Shown here in pieces: positions 9,838 to 63,460 of a DNA stretch of 64,000 nucleotides. Below the pieces are notes generated by a model that did not search any database, was not told where the DNA came from, and saw only the letters and a list, made by a program, of their open reading frames with translations. Position numbers and translations under genes: made by a program. The stretch is from an uncultured Mycoplasma sp. (lineage in GTDB: Bacteria > Bacillota_I > Bacilli_A > Mycoplasmatales > Metamycoplasmataceae), in contig CAMRBN010000001.1 in assembly GCA_947040455.1 (NCBI GenBank), positions 1 through 64,000 of the forward strand, given 5' to 3'. Position 1 is the first letter of the stretch. Each line of letters begins with the position of its first letter.

Positions 9838-10533
9838 ATGAAAATAAATAAGAAGGAAAAAGAATCACTGATTAATGATATGTATGCAAAATTATCTGAA
9901 AATGAAGTAGAAAGGGGATTCCCTGTTTTAGCTGCTACAATAGATAAAAACACCAACACAAATATTGTTATAAAAAATAAAAGATCCTGTAACGGAACAA
10001 ATACTGACATTAATAATCATGCCGAAATAATTTTATTAAAAGAGATTGAAGCAAAAAAATTAAATATTGAATTTATATTAATTAGCCTGCCGCCTTGTTT
10101 TAATTGTTTTGAAAAAATGAAAGAATATGTGAAAAAAAATAAAATCAAAATATTTTTTTTAGTTGATGTTAGAAACAAAAAAAATGAAAGGAAATATGTA
10201 AGAGAAAATGATGATATTAGTTTTTTTAAATGAAAGGAATTAGAAAAAAATATAGAATTTACTTTAAAAATAAATTTTATAATTATGAATTGTATTTTTG
10301 GGTTTTTCAACCATAAAAAACCAGCAAAAAATATCAAGAAAATACTAAAATTTACAAAAGAAGAATTTAAAAAATTTAAAAAAGTAATTGATAAATTAAA
10401 AATTAAAAAGAATAATATAAATGATAAACAGCTAAGTAATATGGTGGAAAAAACTAGAAAAATAAAAATAAAGAATATGACCATTAAAAACATTAAAAAA
10501 GATGATGAGTTTTATTGAATTATTAAAAAATAA
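9838..10533 (+). CDS. Cytidine/deoxycytidylate deaminase-fold protein with Lys-rich C-terminal tail
   Basis: NNHAEIILL and LPPCFNCFEKM (HAE...PCxxC zinc motif); continues through TGA=W into a basic tail, stop TAA 10531-10533. Confidence 0.75.
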
Positions 10534-26316: not shown

Positions 26317-28095
26317 ATGTTTAAAATACTAGATTTATTTTCCGGGGCTGGTGGATTCTCTGTAGGACTTGAAAAAAATAAAAAATTTAGCACTGTAGTT
26401 GCTGTTGACTTTAATGAACAAGCATTAAACACAATTAAACATAATAATCCAAAAATAAAAACCATACTAGGGGATATAACTGATTCTTCTGTTAAAAATA
26501 ATATTATTGAAATTTCAAAAAAATTTGGAGTTAATTTTATCATAGGTGGTCCGCCATGTCAAGGATTTAGTATGAAGGGTAAAAAACAAGGACTCAAAGA
26601 TCCTAGAAATTTTTTATTTATTGAATATTTCAACATGGTTAAGGCGATAACGCCTGAAATTTTTATTATTGAAAATGTTCCGGCCATTATAAATTCATCA
26701 AATGGCTACTTCATGAATGAAATAAAAGATAAATTTAAAGAATTGGGTTATATTTTGAATTATGATATTTTGAATGCATCTCACTTCGGTGTTCCTCAAA
26801 ATAGAAAAAGAGCATTCATAATAGGTTCTAAAACACTAAAATTTGATTTGCCTTTAGGTGATAAATTGAGTCTAGTTACAGTTCAAGATGCAATTTCAGA
26901 TCTTGCATATTTAGAATCAGGAGATATTAGTCATAAGCGTCCATATACAACTAATGCTGAATCTAATTATCAAAAACAATTAAGAAGTGAGTCACACACT
27001 CTATTTAATCACTCATCAACAAATCATTCAAAGGAAACTCTTTATAAGTTATCTTTAATACCAGAAAAAGGAACTAAATTAAATCTTCCCGAAAACTTAA
27101 GAACTAATCAAAAATTTAAAACAACATGGTCAAGATTACATTGAGACCAATTATCTCCAACAATAGACACCAGATTTGACACTCCATCTAATGGGAAAAA
27201 TACTCACCCCACTTTAAATAGAGCAATAACACCCAGAGAAGCTGCAAGAATACAATCATTCCCTGATTCATATGAATTTATCGGCGGGAAGTCAGAAATA
27301 TGCAAGCAAATAGGTAATGCAGTTCCTCCTTTGTTAGCTAGCGCTGTTGGAGAATCTATATTAAAACAAATAAAATCAATATCTCAATCTTCTAATAATA
27401 ATTATGAACTATATAATGGTGATACATATAAAATGTCAGGAAAAATAAAAGACAATTCTATTGATGCCATAATTACAGACCCGCCATATAACATATCTAA
27501 AAAAAATAACTTTTCAACTTTGAGCGGTAAAAGAAAGGGTATTGACTTTGGAGAGTGGGATAAGGAATTTGATTTATATTCTTGAATAAGTGAATATTAC
27601 AACAAATTAAAAGATGGTGGTACTTTTATTATTTTTGGTTCTCACTTATTTGTTTCACACATTTCAGATGAACTAACCAAGTGCGGAGCGGATGTTAAGG
27701 ATTTGTTGAAATGAATAAAATCTAATCCAATGCCTCGAAATGTTGAAAGAAGATATGTTTTAGATACAGAATATGCTGTTTGAGCTGTAAAACCAAAGGG
27801 AAAATGAGTTTTTAATAAACCTAACGGAATTCCATATGTAAGAGCTGAATTTAAAACAGGAGTTGTTTCAGGGAAAGAAAAACTAAATCACCCCACTCAA
27901 AAATCATTAAAATTAATGCAAGAAATAATCTCAATACATACAAATAAAAATGATTTAATACTCGATCCTTTTATGGGCTCTGGAACAACAGGAGCTGCTG
28001 CATTATTGTTAGGACGTAAGTTTATAGGTATAGAAAGAGAATCAAAGTATTTCAACATATCTCGCGAAAGAATTGAGAATATAATTAATAAATAA
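26317..28095 (+). CDS. Bifunctional DNA methyltransferase: N-terminal m5C MTase fused to C-terminal beta-class amino (N4-C/N6-A) MTase
   Basis: One 593-codon frame with TGA=W: LDLFSGAGGFSVGL, GGPPCQGFS, ENVPAI, QIGNAVPP (m5C motifs I, IV, VI, X) followed by ELYNGDTYKMSGKIKDNSIDAIITDPPYNI ... NHPTQKSLKLM ... LDPFMGSGTTGAAALLLGRKFIGIE. Confidence 0.9.
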
Positions 28096-40199: not shown

Positions 40200-40610
40200 A
40201 TGCAAAAAATTTCTCCGCAAAATAAAACAAATTTAAAACAAAGAGTTTTAACATTGATGAACGGTTTGAAAGAAAGAGTTGATTTTTCTTTTAATTTTGA
40301 ATACACAGGTTCTATAAAAAACCCTGGAGAAATGAAAATAAACTCAGATGGTTTTTATGACATTGATATCGATATAAAAACTTCAACAAATATGAGTGCA
40401 CAAGATACTTATTCTAAAATTAAAACAGCTATTAATAACTATAGTTTAAGATATCATGAATCAACTAAATCTAAAACTAATGCGGTTATTTGTATAATTG
40501 TTGATGAACCTGGACATAAATATAAAATTGATATTGCTATTTTTAATTTGAATGGTGGAAAGAGTCAAAAAATGCAAAAATCTGGTCAATCATATGTTTG
40601 ATCACAATAA
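40200..40610 (+). CDS. Nucleotidyltransferase-fold protein (MNT/CD-NTase-like)
   Basis: FEYTGSIKNPGEMKINSDGFYDIDIDIKTS ... HKYKIDIAIFN: GS...DxD ...third D; stop TAA after TGA=W. Confidence 0.6.
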
Positions 40611-41283
40611 GAAGATATTGATTGGTGATATTGATTGTACTAATTTTCAAGAAAACTTTAAAATAAGAAGTTTAACAAGATATAGAAAATTATGAGATGC
40701 AGCTAAGAAAATTGGATATAAATTTGATAATTTTGAAGAAATGGAGAGCGTCTTCAAAGAAGATATTAGAGTTAAAAGACAAGTATTAAAATATTTGTTT
40801 TTTATTGAAAATAAGTTAGGTGCAGAAATAGTTTACTTTATTTTATTGGAAAAAGATTATATCTCAAAATTTTTAGAAAAAAATAACAAGGAAATATTAT
40901 TTATTCAAATTAATGAAAAAAATCCTAACAGTAATATTAATGAAATTAATAAATCTTTAAATGGAGCAAGAACGAATGATGATATTAATTTATTAACTGA
41001 TGAGTTAACTTTTTTAAAAAAAATTAATTTTGCAAAGGTCTTAGAATATTATTCAAAGCATAGTTCTAATAAAAAATCCTTTGACTTGTCATTTGAAATA
41101 AAAGATTTAAGAAAATTCAATACTCTCAGGAATAAAATAGTGCATCATGATTTCATTTTGTTAGATAAAGAAAGTTTGATGATTACATTAAATTTATTAA
41201 AGAAATATATTTCACCAGAATATAAGAAAAAATATAATTCTTTCATAAAAGAAACTGAATATTTTTTCAATAGTATATTCTAA
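40594..41283 (+). CDS. HEPN/Abi-like protein
   Basis: Overlaps NTase 3' end by 17 nt; RKFNTLRNKIVHHDFILLDKESL contains Rx4H HEPN motif; TGA=W. Confidence 0.65.
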
Positions 41284-41554: not shown

Positions 41555-42973
41555 ATGTCAAAAAAAGAAAATGCAAAAATTTTTAAAACACTAGAAGAAG
41601 TTCAAGATTGAGCATTTAAAATGATGAAAAAAAAGGAATATTACATCTATAGAGGGCAGGGTGATAGTTCATGATCATTAAATTCTGGGCATTCACGAAT
41701 ACTAAATACTAAAATGGAATATAAAGATGAAGTTGAGAAATTTGAATTTATTAAAAGAACATTTATACAAAAAATTGAATTTCTTAAGAAACAAATAGAT
41801 AACTTGAAAGATTTAGCACTATTAGGAGAAATGCAACATCATGGTCAAGTAACCCCTTTGATAGATTTTACTGAAGATATCTTGGTTGCTTTATGATTTG
41901 CAGCTTCACACATTGATGAAATTGAAAAAACATTTGAAGATAAAAAAAGTTTTCGAATTTATTACCTAAAAAAAGAAGAGGGAAGCCACCAAAATGAACT
42001 TAATATTGAAAAAATTAAAATAAATGAAATTCAAACTTTTAAATTTAATACTGGTCAACAAATTGGAAGATCTATTAGTCAAAAGTCTATTTTTATTTTT
42101 GATAGTATAAACCTAGATACAAAAGTTGAATATATTGATGTAAAGAATGACTTTGTTTTAAAATTAGATATTATTTCTTGATTAAAAAAATTAGGAATTG
42201 ATTCTATGTCCATATATCCTGACATAGAGGGAGTTTTCAAAAGTTTTGATTTTGTAGGTCCTGATCAACTTTTAAAAAATGGATTTAAATTACTGGAATC
42301 AAACAGATTTGATGAAGCTATTTTGAAATTTAAAGAAGTAATAAAGATTGATGCAAATAATGCTAACTCTTATTTATATTGAGGATTTGCTTTGAATAAA
42401 TTAGGAAGAGATGAAGAGGCGATTGAGAAATTTAAAGAAGTGATAAAAATTGATCTAAATTTTGCTGATGCTTATTATAATTGAGGAGTTGTTTTGGGTG
42501 AGTTAGGGAAATTTGAAGAGGCGATTGAAAAATATCAAAAAGTAATAAAAATTGATCCAAATGATGTTAGCGCTTATAATAATTGAGGATTTTCTTTGGT
42601 CAAATTAGGGAAAGATGAAGAGGGGATTGAGAAATTTAAAGAAGTGATAAAAATTGATCCAAGTAATGCTAGTGCTTACGTTAATTGAGGGGTTGCTTTG
42701 GGTGAGTTAGGGAAAGATGAAGAGGCGATTGAGAAATTTAAAGAAGTGATAAAAATTGATCCAAGTAATGCTAGTGCTTACGTTAATTGAGGGGTTGCTT
42801 TGGGTGAGTTAGGGAAATTTGAAGAGGCGATTGAGAAATATCAAGAAGTAATAAAAATTGATAAAAATAATACTGATGCTTATTCAAATTGAGGAGTTGC
42901 TTTGAACAAACTAGGAAGAAAAGAAGAAGCAGAAGAAAAATTTGAAATAGCAAAAAAATTATCTAACAAATAA
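41555..42973 (+). CDS. FRG-domain protein with C-terminal TPR array
   Basis: YYIYRGQGDSSWSLNS FRG start, GEMQHHGQVTPLIDFTEDILVALWFA; then 34-aa TPRs 'AYVNWGVALGELGKDEEAIEKFKEVIKIDPSNAS'; many TGA=W. Confidence 0.88.
42325..42960 (+). repeat. 102-bp tandem repeats encoding TPRs
   Basis: About six 102-nt units; two central units (about 42650-42850) identical over ~100 nt. Confidence 0.8.
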
Positions 42974-47470: not shown

Positions 47471-48274
47471 ATGAAAAAAATAATGTTTATTGGTAATGGA
47501 TTTGATATTCTTCACGGAATAAATATTACATTCCATCATTTTGTTAACTCTAAAACTTTCCAAGATGGTATTAATAGTTATAAAAAATATTTTATTGATG
47601 ATGAGTATACAAAATTTTCAAAAGAAACAGAATTATGAAGTAGATTTGAAGATTATTGCAAGTATATTGTTGAAAATAAAAATATTCAAGGTTTTTCTTT
47701 TATAAAAAAAATATGCTTACTGTTTCAAAAATGATTTGAAATTCAAGATCTTAAGAAAGTTATAATAAACAAAGAACTTAAAAAATTTATAAAATTAAAC
47801 AAAATAGAAATAATTGTTTCTTTCAATTATACAAATACAACAAATATTTATGGATTTGATAATTTTTATTTTGAACCTAATTCTGCTCGTAATGATTATG
47901 CCAATATAAATTCTTGAAAAGATAAAACCGTTATGTTGCATGCTTACAAATCAAAAGAAATACAAATGGTTCTAGGTCATGATAAAAATAAGTTAATAAA
48001 TAAAAATAAAATTACTAAAAATTGAGGAATCGATAGAAAGTTTGACCCCAAAAAACAAGTATTGCAAACTATTTTAAAATCAAATGAAATTTCTGAAATA
48101 ATATTTTTGGGTTTTTCATTTGGTGATTCTGATGAAGAGATAGTTAATTTTGCAAAAAAAATTATCAACAAACAAAGAGTAGTAACTATTTTTTATCACA
48201 ATAAAATTAATCAATCAATTAGAAAACACTTTAAAGAGATTGAATTCTGCAAAATAAAAAAAACTATTTTTTAG
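47471..48274 (+). CDS. AbiH-like abortive infection protein
   Basis: MKKIMFIGNGFDILHGINITFHHF ... IIVSFNYTNTTNIYG ... IIFLGFSFGDSDEEIV. Confidence 0.85.
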
Positions 48275-48791
48275 GTTTTTGATTATTTCAAGTATCTGCT
48301 CCAATTTCCAATGTTGTTTTTGGATCGATATTTCAGATATTACTTAAATCTTCTAATAATATTTCTAGATTCTTTTTACTTGGATAATCTAAATATTTTA
48401 TATGATCATCATTTCCTATTAATTGCAAACAAACTTCTTTAATATAAGAATAAATCATTCCATATATTTTTAAATAATTTTTAGATTCAATGTTTGAAGA
48501 TGGCTTATTATATTTTTTTATTATTAATAATTTATCAACATCAACAATTATTAATTTTGAAATATGATATTCAATAGTCTTTTTGAAACTTAGAAATCAT
48601 GAATTAAAATAAAGTTCTTCCGACCAAGCACTTACACATCATATTTGTTTAGATAGAGTTTCGCTTTGATCACTTTTTTTTATAAGATGCTTTTCATAAC
48701 AATATTTCGCTATTTCTGACAAATCAATAACTAAAATATTCTTATTATAATCTTTATATAACTTAGCATATATTTTGTTCTCTGACTCCAT
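48264..48791 (-). CDS. Hypothetical protein, convergent overlap with AbiH-like gene
   Basis: 176-codon reverse frame with TGA=W; MESENKIYAKLYKDYNKNILVIDLSEIAKYCYEKHLIKKSDQ... Confidence 0.6.
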
Positions 48792-48857: not shown

Positions 48858-50864
48858 TTATATTTTTTCTATTATATTTTGAAAATCTTTATACTCATCT
48901 TCATCATAATCTTTTATACAATGTTTTGAACATTTTTTAAAAGATTTTTCTTCACAATTTATATTTTCCTTTTTGTTACAATGTTTTGAACATTTTCCAC
49001 AATTTTGCATATAATCTTTAATTAATTTTATAACTCTTTTGAATTTTTCTTCTATTTCAATTAATTTTAAATCGCTATTAAATATTGTTTGATGTTGGTA
49101 ATTATTATTTATTAAAAAATATCATAAATTATAATTTGAATAATATTCCACTATAGATTTCTTTATTTTTTCAACTTCTATATTATTATTTAATAAACTA
49201 GGTTCTTTTATTAAATCATCTATATTTTCGTTAAAAAAATAATTGAATTTATAAAAAGAAATAAAGGAATCTATGAATGGTTTAACAACACACTCTTCTT
49301 CGAGTGTTTTCAATGATTTTATAATTTTATTATCAAAAAGTCATGTATTTTTAAAATATTCTTCATCAGATAAAAAAGAATTTTTAATATCTTTAATGTT
49401 ACTATTTTTTTTATACCTTTCCTCAAAATAAATAATTTTTTCAACCCCAACATTAAATAAGGACTTTAAGCATTCATCACATGAATATAAATTAGAATAA
49501 ACAATTGTGTTTTTGTGTATTTTAGCATTATTTTTAATAATTGATAAAATTGCATTGGTTTCTGCATGAACCATATATTCCTCTTTTTTTCCCTTATCAT
49601 GAAAATGACTTAATGTATTTGGGAATCCATTGTATCCAGTGGAATATAAAATATATTGCTTGAATTCCCCAAATATAATCTCCTTTACAAAAGAACATCC
49701 AACTTTAGATGAACCATCAAAACTTCTAAAACTAACAATGTAACTAATTGCCATAAATATTGTATTTACTCAAGTTTCAGAATTTATTGAATCTTTACAA
49801 TTTTTAACCTTATATTGAACTTCAGCAATAAAATTCGTGAATGTTAGTAGTTCCTGTCTTTGTATCTCATCATTTTTATAGTAATAACCAAAATCAATAA
49901 TTGATTTTAAAAAGTTATTTTTATTAGTGTTATTATTAATTAACATTTTTTTATATTTTATGCCCGATTCAAGCAACATCCCTATTACCTCTTTTGAGTT
50001 ATCATCATATGAAAAATCCTCATCCTTTGACTTTGTTTCACCTGAAACATCTCCTTTATTCAATGTTGTTTCACTATAATCAATTTCCAAGTAAATTATT
50101 TCATTGATTTCGGCTTGAATAGCAAAATATACATCCTTTGGAGTTAGCAGTGATGTGGTATAAATTGTAGCCCCTTTCGTACTAGCTTGAACATTCGCAG
50201 AATTATTAATAGCATTAACAACAGAGTTTATAATTGTGTATTTTTTTTCATAAGTTGTATTTTCTCCGCATTTTTTAGTTTTTAAATTGATAAGTTCTGT
50301 TAAATTTGAATTAATCGGAAGTGCGGTGTCATACCCACTTGATATTATTCTTTTATTCAAAACAATAATTGATGCATGCTTAGATAGTAAATCAACAACA
50401 TGCAAAAGAGCTTCTATCAATGGATTATCATCCTGAATTTCTAACTTGTTATAAAAATATTTATCCTCTTTAATAACCCTTCATACAAAAAGTTCTCTCA
50501 TTGTATCAACAGATCAATTCCTCTTTCAATTTCAAGATCTTGGCTCTCAAACTTTTGATTTTTCAGCTAACTTCTTCTCTTTTGATTTTTCAATTATAAA
50601 AAGAGTTTTATTAAATTCAATAAAATTTATTATTTTCTCTATTTTTGGCGATAATTTGTTATCACCAAACTCTTTTTGATCTTTAATATTTTCTTGTTTA
50701 TCTTTTTCAATTTTTATTTTTAATAAAATTTCATTAAAAATTTCTTCTATTTCTTTTCCTGAAGGTTGATTAATATATGTTAAAAATTTTAACATATATG
50801 TAATGGACATAAAATAATTATCTAAATTATCTAATCCATCTGAATTCTTTTTTTCTTTATTCAT
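48858..50864 (-). CDS. Tandem deaminase-fold protein: degenerate N-terminal + active-type C-terminal dCMP/cytidine deaminase domain
   Basis: Track ORFs 50547-50912, 49770-50420, 49341-49754, 49122-49313 are all in one frame, split by TGA=W. Domain 1: ASIIVLNKRIISSGYDTALP...STKGATIYTTSLLTPKDVYFAIQAEINEIIYLE (no HAE/PCxxC). Domain 2: YNGFPN...MVHAETNAILSII...VYSNLYSCDECLKSLFNVGVEKIIYFE. Confidence 0.8.
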
Positions 50865-51219
50865 AAAATATCCTTTAATTTTAATAACTTTTTTTAATAT
50901 ATGTGGTGTCAAAAAAACTTTTCTTCAAAGTCTTTCTCTGAAAATTTTAAAATTAAATAAAAGCATAGATATATTTTAAAAATAACACATAAACCAAAAC
51001 AATGATATTTAATCAATATTTTAATTAATAACATTTTACATTAAATTTATTCATTTAAAAAAATATTTAAATGTGTTAACTAATGATTTATACACTCCTT
51101 AGTAAAATACATCGCTTCAAACAAGTATTTTATTTAAATACGAAAAAATATAACCTACAAATGTTTAAAAAACTTAATCTTGAAAAGTTGTTAAGAGTAT
51201 GAATCACAGTATGAAAATA

Positions 51220-59517: not shown

Positions 59518-61155
59518 TTATTTTTTTAACTTTTTAACTGCATAGGCAAAAACACCTAAAGGCGGCACTAAGGAAGCTAACAATATAGAACCCATAATAA
59601 TCCCTTTGTTTGAAGAATTACTAAATATTTTTGAATCATTAATTCAATTGATTTTTAGATATTGAGCTTCAGTGAACCCATAAACTTCATAATCTGATGT
59701 TTTGTGTTTCAAATGCATAGAAATATCGTTCAACAAAAGTGTTGACTCAAAAGAGTTATATTCCACAACCTCAACAGACAAAGGAACTTCAATCTTTTTT
59801 ATTTGAGTTCCATTAAAAACTCCGGTGGAAATAGTGTGTAATTTAGAATCTTGAGTAAAATATATAGATTTTAAAGTTGAAGATTCAAATAAACCATTAT
59901 CCAACATTTTTACACCCTCAGGAATAGAAATAGATTTAATAAATTTATTATTCTTTCAAATTTCTGGACCAATAGCTTCTACATTGGGCGCTTGTTCTCA
60001 ATCATCTAAAGTAATCGTTTCTTTACTAGTTCAACCAAGTTGATCAGCAATATCCTTAGTTAGGACAGTAGCACCTGTTTTCGAGTAAACTCATTTTATT
60101 GCATCTCATTGGGTTTGTGTCAAACCAAAATATGAAGTTGAAGTTGAAAATTTAATATTAAAATTAATATCTTCTAAAAAAGTTGTTCCACTAAATGCAA
60201 GATTACCAATTTTTTGAATACTATTTGGCAATTCAATAGAAGTTAAAATTGTATTGTCCTTAAATACATCAACAGATAATTCAACAACTTTAGGAGCATA
60301 TAGTCTTCAATCCTCTAAAGTTATTACTGTTTTTTTATCTCAACCCAAACTTTTCATTATTGATTTTGTCAAGATGGTTGCATGTGTTGCGGATTCATAT
60401 ATTCAATTTATTGAATCTCATTGGACTTGTGTAAAACCCAAATATTCCATACCCAAATCTTTAAAACGAATAGGCATAGAAATATCAGAAAGTTTTGTAG
60501 TATTTTTAAACGCAAGCTCACCTATATGTGTAGTAGATTCAGGAATTTGTATAGACTCTAAAGTATCGCAACCTCAAAATGAATCATATCCAATTGAATG
60601 CAATAAAGATCCGGATTCAAAAGATAAGTGTGTAATAGCACTATTTGAAAATGAAAATTTACCTAGGGTTTTAACTGATTTGGGAACAACTATTGGATCC
60701 ATACCTGTATTAACACCAATTCCATCTAATGAAAACTCTTCAAGAGCACTCAATGAAGATTCTGGTTCAAAAGTTATTGACTTTAAAGAAAAAGTACCGC
60801 CAAAAGAGTTTGACCCAATAACTTCTATATTTTTTGGTATTTCAATAGTTAAAAGATTCCCGAAACCTCAAAATGAGCCTGCTAATTTCGTTATATGAGG
60901 AGCTTGTAATTCTCAATCATGCAAGGTTATTGATGTTTTTTGGTTTCAACCCAAATTTTTAGCAATTTCATTGGTTAAGATTGTTGATTTAGTTAGATTT
61001 ATATTGTTGGTTGTAACTTCTTTATTAATTTCATCCGTCGATATTTTTGTTTCATTTTTGTTATTTATTGAGACAACAATCAAAGTGGAAGATCCGATTA
61101 ATCCTAATATTCCAAAGCCTGCAAAATATTGAAATATTTTTTTATTCATAAACAT
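59518..61155 (-). CDS. BspA-like LRR_5 surface protein with N- and C-terminal TM helices
   Basis: 546-codon reverse frame with TGA=W; LTIEIPKNIEVIGSNSFGGTFSLKSITFE...; C-term TM IIMGSILLASLVPPLGVFAYAVKKLKK. Confidence 0.88.
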
Positions 61156-63460
61156 TTCTCTTAATTGCTCTTGCGGAAAAAATCAAAATAATTCCTTGAA
61201 TTGCCACAAGGGCAAATAATGATGACGCTACAATAATAAATTTGGTGCTTGGTTTTTCATAAATTCAATTAATGTTATTTCATTGTTCATTAGATAAACC
61301 AAAAAAGTCAAGAGAGTTTTCAAACTTTGAAGATATTTGAATATTGTTGAAAAGAGTATTTCTAAAAGCGTTTTTATCTATAAAAATAACACTATAAGGT
61401 ATTATTATTGATTTCAACGATGTTCCAAAAAAGACATCTTCTTCAATAACTTTTAATTTAGAATTATCTTCAAAATTTATTTCTTCCAAAGATTTGGTAT
61501 TTTTAAAAGAATTAAAGCCAAAATTTAAAACATAATTTGGTATTTCGATAGATATTAAATTTTTGTTATTTTCAAAAGCACCACTAATAGTTTCAATATT
61601 TGGAGCCATAGTTCTTCAATCATCTAGAAGTATATTGGCTTTATTTTCTCAGCCTAATTTGATCACTAATTCTTTTGTCAAAACTTTTTCTTGAGTTGGC
61701 GATAAAACTCATTTTACTTTATTTCATTGAGTTTGCGTAAAACCAAAATCAGTTAATATCTCTTTAAAATGAGATGGCAGTGAAATGTTGGTTAATTGAG
61801 ATGTCTCAATAAAAGTATTGAAGCCAATTTTTTTCACATTATTAGGAATAATTATTTTTTTAATATTTGTGTTGGAAAATGCTAATTCTTGTATTTCAAC
61901 AACATTATCAGGGATAATTATTTCTTGCAATGCTGTATTGAGAAACAAAGAATGTTCGATAATTTTTAGTGAACTAGGAAGTGTCAAGGAAGTTAGTAGT
62001 AAATTTTCAGCAAAAGCACTACCACATATAACAGAAACTGTTGGAGGTATAATCATAGAAGATATTGCGATTTTTCTAAATGCATCAAAACCAATAGAAT
62101 TTAGTTTAGAATTCATTTCAAAAATTACTTTATTTAAATTTATTGTTGCGTAAAAACTGCTATCACCAATGGTTTCTATTTCGTTAGGTATTTCAATTGA
62201 AGTCAAAATTTCGTGATTTAAAAACGCTCCTGAAATCGTCGTCACATTCGGAGCCATAGTTCTTCAATCTGCCAAAGTTATTATTTCTTTTTGGTCTCAA
62301 CCAATGCTTATAGTAGCCGCTTTATCTAAATCTGTTCCATAAAATGGTACATGAGTTCATTGAATTAAATCTCATTGGGTTTGTGTAAAACCATAACTAG
62401 GAGTTGATGTTTTGAATTTAATGTTCATTGAAATATCCTTCAAAATTGGCGTAGAAGCAAAAACTCCAGTTCCCAACATTTCAACAGAATCAGGGATAAC
62501 AATTTTTCTAATTCTAGAATTTCCATCAAATGCTTCATTTTGAATATTTTTTACATCATGAGGAATTATTATTTCTGAGACAGCTGTAAACATCAAAACT
62601 CTAGCAGAAATTACTTTTAATTTCGGAGGAAAACTAAATGAAATTAAACTTGGGATATAACTAAATGCCCCTTCATCTATAGAAGTAATAGAATCAGGTA
62701 AATCTATAGTGGTTAATTCTGTGCTATGAAATGCCTTTGCTCCTATTGTTTTCAACACAGAGCCTTCTTCAAAAATAACATGCCTTAAAAATAAAGCCTT
62801 GTCAAAAGTATCTTTATTTATTGCTTGAATTTTTTTAGGTATTTGAATTGTTTTAAGTATTTTATTTGCTTGAAATGCTCCGGAAATTATTGTAACATTT
62901 GGAGCCATAGTTCTTCAATCATCAAAAGTTATTGTTGTTCTTTTGTCTCAACCAATGCTTATAGCAGCCGCTTTATCTAAATCAGTTCCTGAAAAAGGTG
63001 TATACATTCATTCAATTGCATCTCATTGAATTTGTGTTAATCCATATCTATGTGCTGTTCCTGATGTTTTTAATGAAAAATTCATTTTAATACTTGTTAA
63101 ATTGGGATTGTTAGAAAACGCATCTGATGCAACGGTTGTAATGTTAGATGGAATTTCAATATTTTTTAGAAATTGCATTGAAGAAAAAACACCTGATTCT
63201 ATGGAAGTGACATTTGGTGCGTTTTTATGTCAAGCATCAAATCCTATAGTTTCTTGAGTATTTCAATTTAATTCATTTAAAATTGATGGTGTTAAAACTG
63301 TTTCAGTGGTTGTTTTAGAAACCATATAATTGTTTTTGGTAATTGAATTATCAACATTAATTTTAGTTTTTTTATGGTCATTTAATACACTTGGAATTAG
63401 TGAAACAAATGATGTTGATATAATAAAAATAGTAGGAATGAAAAATTTTTTTATTTGCAA
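61142..63460 (-). CDS. BspA-like LRR_5 surface protein (larger paralog)
   Basis: 773-codon reverse frame with TGA=W; repeated MAPNVTTISGAFLNHEILTSIEIPNEIETIG units; C-term TM FIIVASSLFALVAIQGIILIFSARAIKRNVYE. Confidence 0.88.

Follow-up and report, generated by a model that had tools for sequence, protein, structure and literature searches.

A tandem deaminase of one dead and one live domain in a Mycoplasma defence island

A single gene in a defence island of an uncultured Mycoplasma encodes a protein of 668 amino acids in which a catalytically dead deaminase domain is followed by a live zinc deaminase of the dCMP deaminase (DCTD) family. An earlier sequence-only reading had proposed this dead-then-live tandem, and the proposal is upheld here: the N-terminal half does have a deaminase fold, and TGA is not a stop in this gene. 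The layout resembles that of the human (d)CTP deaminase CDADC1, and the genomic setting points to immunity. With somewhat more confidence than doubt, we regard the protein as an accessory anti-phage deaminase, probably gained by horizontal transfer and acting on dCTP and/or dCMP, in which the dead domain would serve as the structural or gating half. The window, that is, the whole stretch of DNA analysed, comprises the first 64 kb of contig 1 (CAMRBN010000001.1) of a 0.82 Mb genome that is 99% complete and of the table-4 type.

One reading frame and two deaminase domains

Read on the minus strand from 50864 to 48858, the gene is a single frame with eight TGA codons, no TGG codon and neither TAA nor TAG before the stop; under the standard code the same frame breaks into fragments. 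The single frame with UGA as Trp had been recognized at these coordinates before, but its strand is corrected here to minus, as the plus-strand reading of 48858-50864 contains many stops and was rejected together with the other frames. TGA codon 365 aligns with a Trp that is invariant in dCMP deaminases, and the frame is therefore no artefact of the choice of code. An AAAGGA-type ribosome site lies immediately 5' of the ATG at 50864, and a second in-frame ATG further upstream, at 50966, is the less likely start. The features of the protein and its surroundings are collected in Table 1.

Table 1 Coordinates of the deaminase gene, its parts and its surroundings in the window.
Feature	Position	Strand	Remarks
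Tandem pseudo/active deaminase gene	48858..50864	-	668 aa, TGA=Trp
N-terminal helical region (residues 1-147)	50424..50864	-	No family match
Pseudo-deaminase domain (residues ~148-310)	49935..50423	-	Full deaminase topology; zinc and catalytic residues all lost
Helical linker between the deaminase domains (residues ~311-361)	49782..49934	-	Low to middling pLDDT
Active-type dCMP-deaminase-like domain (residues ~362-567)	49164..49781	-	Pfam, alignment, model, structure matches
HAE motif (H433, E435; residues 433-435)	49560..49568	-	Alignment
SCDEC zinc motif (C462, C465; residues 461-465)	49470..49484	-	Alignment
Cys-rich tail (C622-x2-C-x3-C ... C649)	48918..49001	-	Two identical 18-nt KCSKHC copies
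Downstream same-strand ORF	48264..48791	-	175 aa; 66 bp behind the deaminase gene, own ribosome site
Defence island	20786-53239		Roughly 30 kb; most recognizable genes are defence genes

The C-terminal domain is a zinc deaminase of the DCTD family with HAE and CxxC intact, in line with the earlier claim that the second domain keeps HAE and the Cys pair SCDEC. It matches Pfam PF00383 (E 3.5e-12) and human dCMP deaminase (1.2e-8, phmmer), and shares 28-38% identity with dCMP deaminases of Mollicutes. All positions that are invariant across 11 dCMP deaminases are kept, including H433, E435, C462, C465 and GYN, and the G(Y/W)N(A/G) allosteric motif of these enzymes is present as GYNG at residues 410-413. 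The AlphaFold2 model of the domain is confident, with the core in blocks of 82-96 pLDDT, and superimposes on the PBCV-1 dCMP/dCTP deaminase (Z 17.7, rmsd 2.0, 135 residues) and on S. mutans dCMP deaminase (2hvw; Z 17.4). In both sequence and structure the top matches are dCMP/dCTP deaminases, and base and mixed deaminases rank lower. Fold, HxE, CxxC and GYNG are thus common to this domain, to the DCTD/ComEB enzymes (PDB 2w4l, 2hvw, 1vq2) and to the PBCV-1 enzyme (7fh4), whereas a Ser replaces the Pro ahead of the first zinc Cys (SCxxC for PCxxC), the stretch from GYNGxP to HAE lacks its PW loop, and strands 4 and 5 are set apart by a long helical insertion before the last strand. The hairpin in front of GYNG is also longer than usual. 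At the PCxxC site, LMTC is likewise found among Mollicute relatives. The whole protein departs further from these enzymes, which are single-domain proteins of about 140-190 aa; members of the DCTD family are of ~20 kDa and form hexamers, a description that a 668-aa chain with two deaminase folds does not fit.

The N-terminal domain has a true dCMP-deaminase-like fold and is catalytically dead, as the sequence-only reading had surmised from the retained fold pattern and the missing HAE and PCxxC. Searched alone, the N-terminal half matches dCMP deaminases (E 1.5e-5 and 2.4e-6), and a dCMP deaminase profile built from other genomes only scores it at 32 bits, the best of 2000 shuffles reaching 13.4. 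In the alignment all four catalytic or zinc residues are replaced (H by N, E by V, one Cys by Pro and the other by Val) and the RSKDPxTxVG loop is absent, so that the domain is incapable of the usual zinc binding or catalysis. AlphaFold2 modelling of the full-length protein, which the earlier reading had suggested as a check, places the core helices and strands of this half in deaminase order with a mean pLDDT of about 77-94, from an alignment that had virtually no rows across the domain. A model of the domain alone retrieved T4 dCMP deaminase (Foldseek E 5e-9), followed by the human, PBCV-1 and S. mutans enzymes, in a test that is partly circular, as dCMP deaminases were among its aligned sequences. 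Profile, AlphaFold2 and Foldseek agree, and the domain comes from the same family as the DCTD enzymes. Its similarity to ordinary dCMP deaminases (Z up to 16.5) exceeds that to its own C-terminal neighbour (Z 1.7), and there is consequently no sign of a recent copying of the live domain; a recent internal duplication was considered and is unsupported.

No Walker A motif was matched anywhere in the protein. Both KCSKHC motifs described earlier in the tail are present and exact, each encoded by the same 18 nt, AAATGTTCAAAACATTGT, in two copies 60 bp apart (48918-48995, minus strand). A degenerate KCSKHC pattern matches once more, at contig position 64515.

Comparison with CDADC1, APOBEC3 and AvcD/DCD

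When the full model was compared with solved structures by Foldseek, ranks 1-3 were human CDADC1, with 417-433 columns spanning both domains. VIA-align pairs residues 154-567 of the model with residues 43-471 of CDADC1 (Z 14.4, 222 residues, rmsd 11.3). Domain-domain placement in the model is unreliable (pTM 0.41; rmsd 11-18 over both domains), and the rmsd of 11.3 means that the placement either differs from that in CDADC1 or is not captured by the model. In CDADC1 the dead domain fills the place of a partner subunit in trimers and dimers of trimers, and the linker has about 126 residues and five helices, compared with about 50 residues here. CDADC1 is reported as vertebrate-specific and its biological role is described as unknown. 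To the common layout the Mycoplasma protein adds a helical region at the N terminus and a tail rich in Cys. CDADC1 deaminates (d)CTP and combines a dead N-terminal with a live C-terminal domain (PMC12088426), both DCTD-like and in a single chain as in the Mycoplasma protein (PDB 9hfq-9hft; PMC12088426, PMC12184417). Its dead domain retains the H and PCxxC, with HAG for HAE, and binds zinc (PMC12088426), whereas every zinc ligand is lost here. Given the CDADC1-like layout, yet neither a zinc-binding dead domain nor the long linker, the protein is an analogue or distant counterpart of CDADC1, full-length homology being unproven.

The sequence-only reading had likened the layout to two-domain APOBECs. 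Two-domain APOBEC3 enzymes do have the dead/live tandem layout in common with this protein, but both Mycoplasma domains are nearer to dCMP deaminases, and CDADC1 is the better architectural comparison. Among the structure and sequence matches listed, dCMP deaminases come first and no APOBEC appears, which leaves room for a distant tie.

AvcD/DCD, the other comparison made earlier with the remark that these proteins carry other domains, also places a zinc deaminase on the C-terminal side and occurs among defence genes (NF041025; PADLOC dCTPase). The N-terminal part of AvcD/DCD is a P-loop NTPase, and a dead deaminase stands in its place here. Family membership is rejected: the protein scores 36.3 bits against the NF041025 cut-off of 400, its alignment to that model covers the HAE-CxxC stretch only, it has no Walker A motif, and its N-terminal fold is a different one. 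No AvcD over the NF041025 cut-off was present in 148 sampled genomes of the order. AvcD depletes the dC pool upon infection, as shown experimentally, and is held in check by a co-encoded RNA antitoxin that is lost once the phage halts transcription (PMC10511110). The depletion effect (PMC10511110) is likely to be common to AvcD/DCD and the Mycoplasma protein; AvcD/DCD is a functional analogue at most. According to one account, the anti-phage zinc deaminases described to date are fused to other activities and are no CDADC1 homologues (PMC12184417).

Genomic setting and relatives

The island that holds the gene includes restriction-modification genes and encodes AIPR, several cytosine (5mC) and adenine (N6) methylases, HNH nucleases, two NOV_C proteins, GmrSD, a SMODS-like fragment, FRG-TPR, GIY-YIG/DUF4357, AbiH and AbiE (AbiEii), and the deaminase gene is flanked by the AbiH and AbiE genes. 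At 75 kb the same contig carries genes reading as ybeY, cdd and era, which places the island on the chromosome. The window also encodes a 592-aa protein in which a C5-cytosine methylase is joined to an N6/N4 DNA methylase domain (26317-28095, plus strand), an FRG domain joined to a long TPR array that matches the PADLOC candidate family PDC-S15 (41555-42973, plus strand), and, at 40200-41283 on the plus strand, a 136-aa ORF with a weak SMODS/oligonucleotide-cyclase match that overlaps the 261-aa ORF behind it in a different frame, the two perhaps being a split or frameshifted cyclase. Two large adjacent BspA-type leucine-rich-repeat proteins are encoded beside an HPr gene (59518-63460, minus strand).

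The 175-aa ORF downstream of the deaminase gene is a possible operon partner; for its product, searches returned no known family, no relatives and no relative of solved structure. The roughly 720 bp upstream of the deaminase gene have no long ORF. Neither sizeable tandem repeats nor a match to an RNA family turned up in this stretch, and it folds marginally better than its shuffles (z -1.5), which leaves an AvcI-like RNA at this place unsupported.

No match to ThyA or ThyX was found in the 99% complete genome, and a deaminase making dUMP or dUTP is thus without an evident biosynthetic use. Elsewhere in the genome PF00383 matches in two places: Cdd, and a further deaminase encoded at 9838-10533 (plus strand). 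The latter has 231 aa with HAE and PPCxxC (PF00383 25 bits), a long basic C-terminal part and no NCBIfam match, and may be a divergent TadA or some other deaminase.

Searches of 298 genomes of the order, of 392 of the phylum and of the phage and plasmid collections, as well as pattern scans, returned no full-length relative; the scans with the whole protein against genome and viral contigs gave zero relatives. In phages and plasmids, tblastn matched the C-domain stretch alone, and none of 80 viral relatives had the two profile matches of a tandem deaminase. The N domain as query returned only single-deaminase proteins, from Woesearchaeota and one from Armatimonadetes, several of them carrying a part that resembles a P-loop kinase ahead of the deaminase. 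Neither the gene nor any dCMP deaminase was matched in 11 congeners. With no full-length relative, recurrent linkage to defence genes cannot be shown, and the island ties this single gene to defence through guilt by association.

A proposed role and its alternatives

The island context and the missing thymidylate synthase match suggest a defence role; the substrate, assembly, trigger and effect on phages given below are inferences. On sequence, dCMP, dCTP, another nucleotide and nucleic acid are all candidate substrates, among which the sequence cannot choose. Most likely, the C domain would turn dCTP and/or dCMP into a deoxyuridine nucleotide during infection; the dC pool would be drained, dUTP possibly raised, and phage DNA synthesis would fail. 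By analogy with CDADC1 the dead domain may stand in for a partner subunit and either fix or gate the assembly; a trigger would most plausibly be sensed, or a partner bound, by the N-terminal helices and the Cys-rich tail.

Other explanations account for part of these observations. The protein could be a deaminase of the toxin-antitoxin or abortive-infection type, neutralized by the downstream 175-aa protein or by an upstream RNA and halting its own cell through depletion. The same-strand ORF at a distance of 66 bp with its own ribosome site, the roughly 720 bp upstream that lack a long ORF and the control of AvcD by a co-encoded RNA (PMC10511110) would fit such an arrangement; the unremarkable upstream stretch (no sizeable repeats, no RNA family, z -1.5) and the match of the downstream protein to no known family speak against it, and we consider it unlikely. 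Rather less credit goes to a dCMP/dCTP deaminase of metabolism or salvage that is in the island by chance and whose N domain is a regulatory remnant. Housekeeping dCMP deaminases are indeed the nearest relatives in sequence and the GYNG allosteric motif is retained, but dUMP would have no evident biosynthetic use where neither ThyA nor ThyX is matched, 0 of 11 congeners match, and both the length (668 aa against about 160) and the defence-island setting are out of keeping with such a function.

An APOBEC-like deaminase of nucleic acids, which would hold its substrate by the dead domain and the Cys-rich tail and edit DNA or RNA of the phage with the live domain, would draw on the pseudo/active layout, on the CxxC/CxxxC spacing in the tail and on an additional Pfam match to MafB19-like deaminases (31 bits). 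Zinc binding by the tail is only putative, however, and with dCMP/dCTP deaminases ahead of base and mixed deaminases in both sequence and structure we hold this reading to be quite improbable.

The favoured role, an accessory deaminase of dCTP and/or dCMP, can be taken a step further. The protein might represent a new type of anti-phage effector, a prokaryotic CDADC1-like protein whose dead domain, devoid of zinc ligands, would act as a regulator and free the live dCTP deaminase once infection is sensed by the 175-aa partner or by the protein's own N-terminal helices or Cys-rich tail; we offer this as a tentative idea that is doubtful at present. The protein suggests nucleotide depletion in Mollicutes, with AvcD over the cut-off in 0 of 148 sampled genomes of the order. 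The dead-plus-live layout, otherwise described for CDADC1, occurs here in a bacterium and inside a defence island, and two points can now be tested: the recurrence of pseudo-deaminase domains as regulators in immunity by nucleotide depletion, and a possible antiviral logic behind the CDADC1 layout. If the idea of a CDADC1-like effector is true, CDADC1 would gain an architectural counterpart in bacterial immunity, and the antiviral idea for CDADC1 would be supported.
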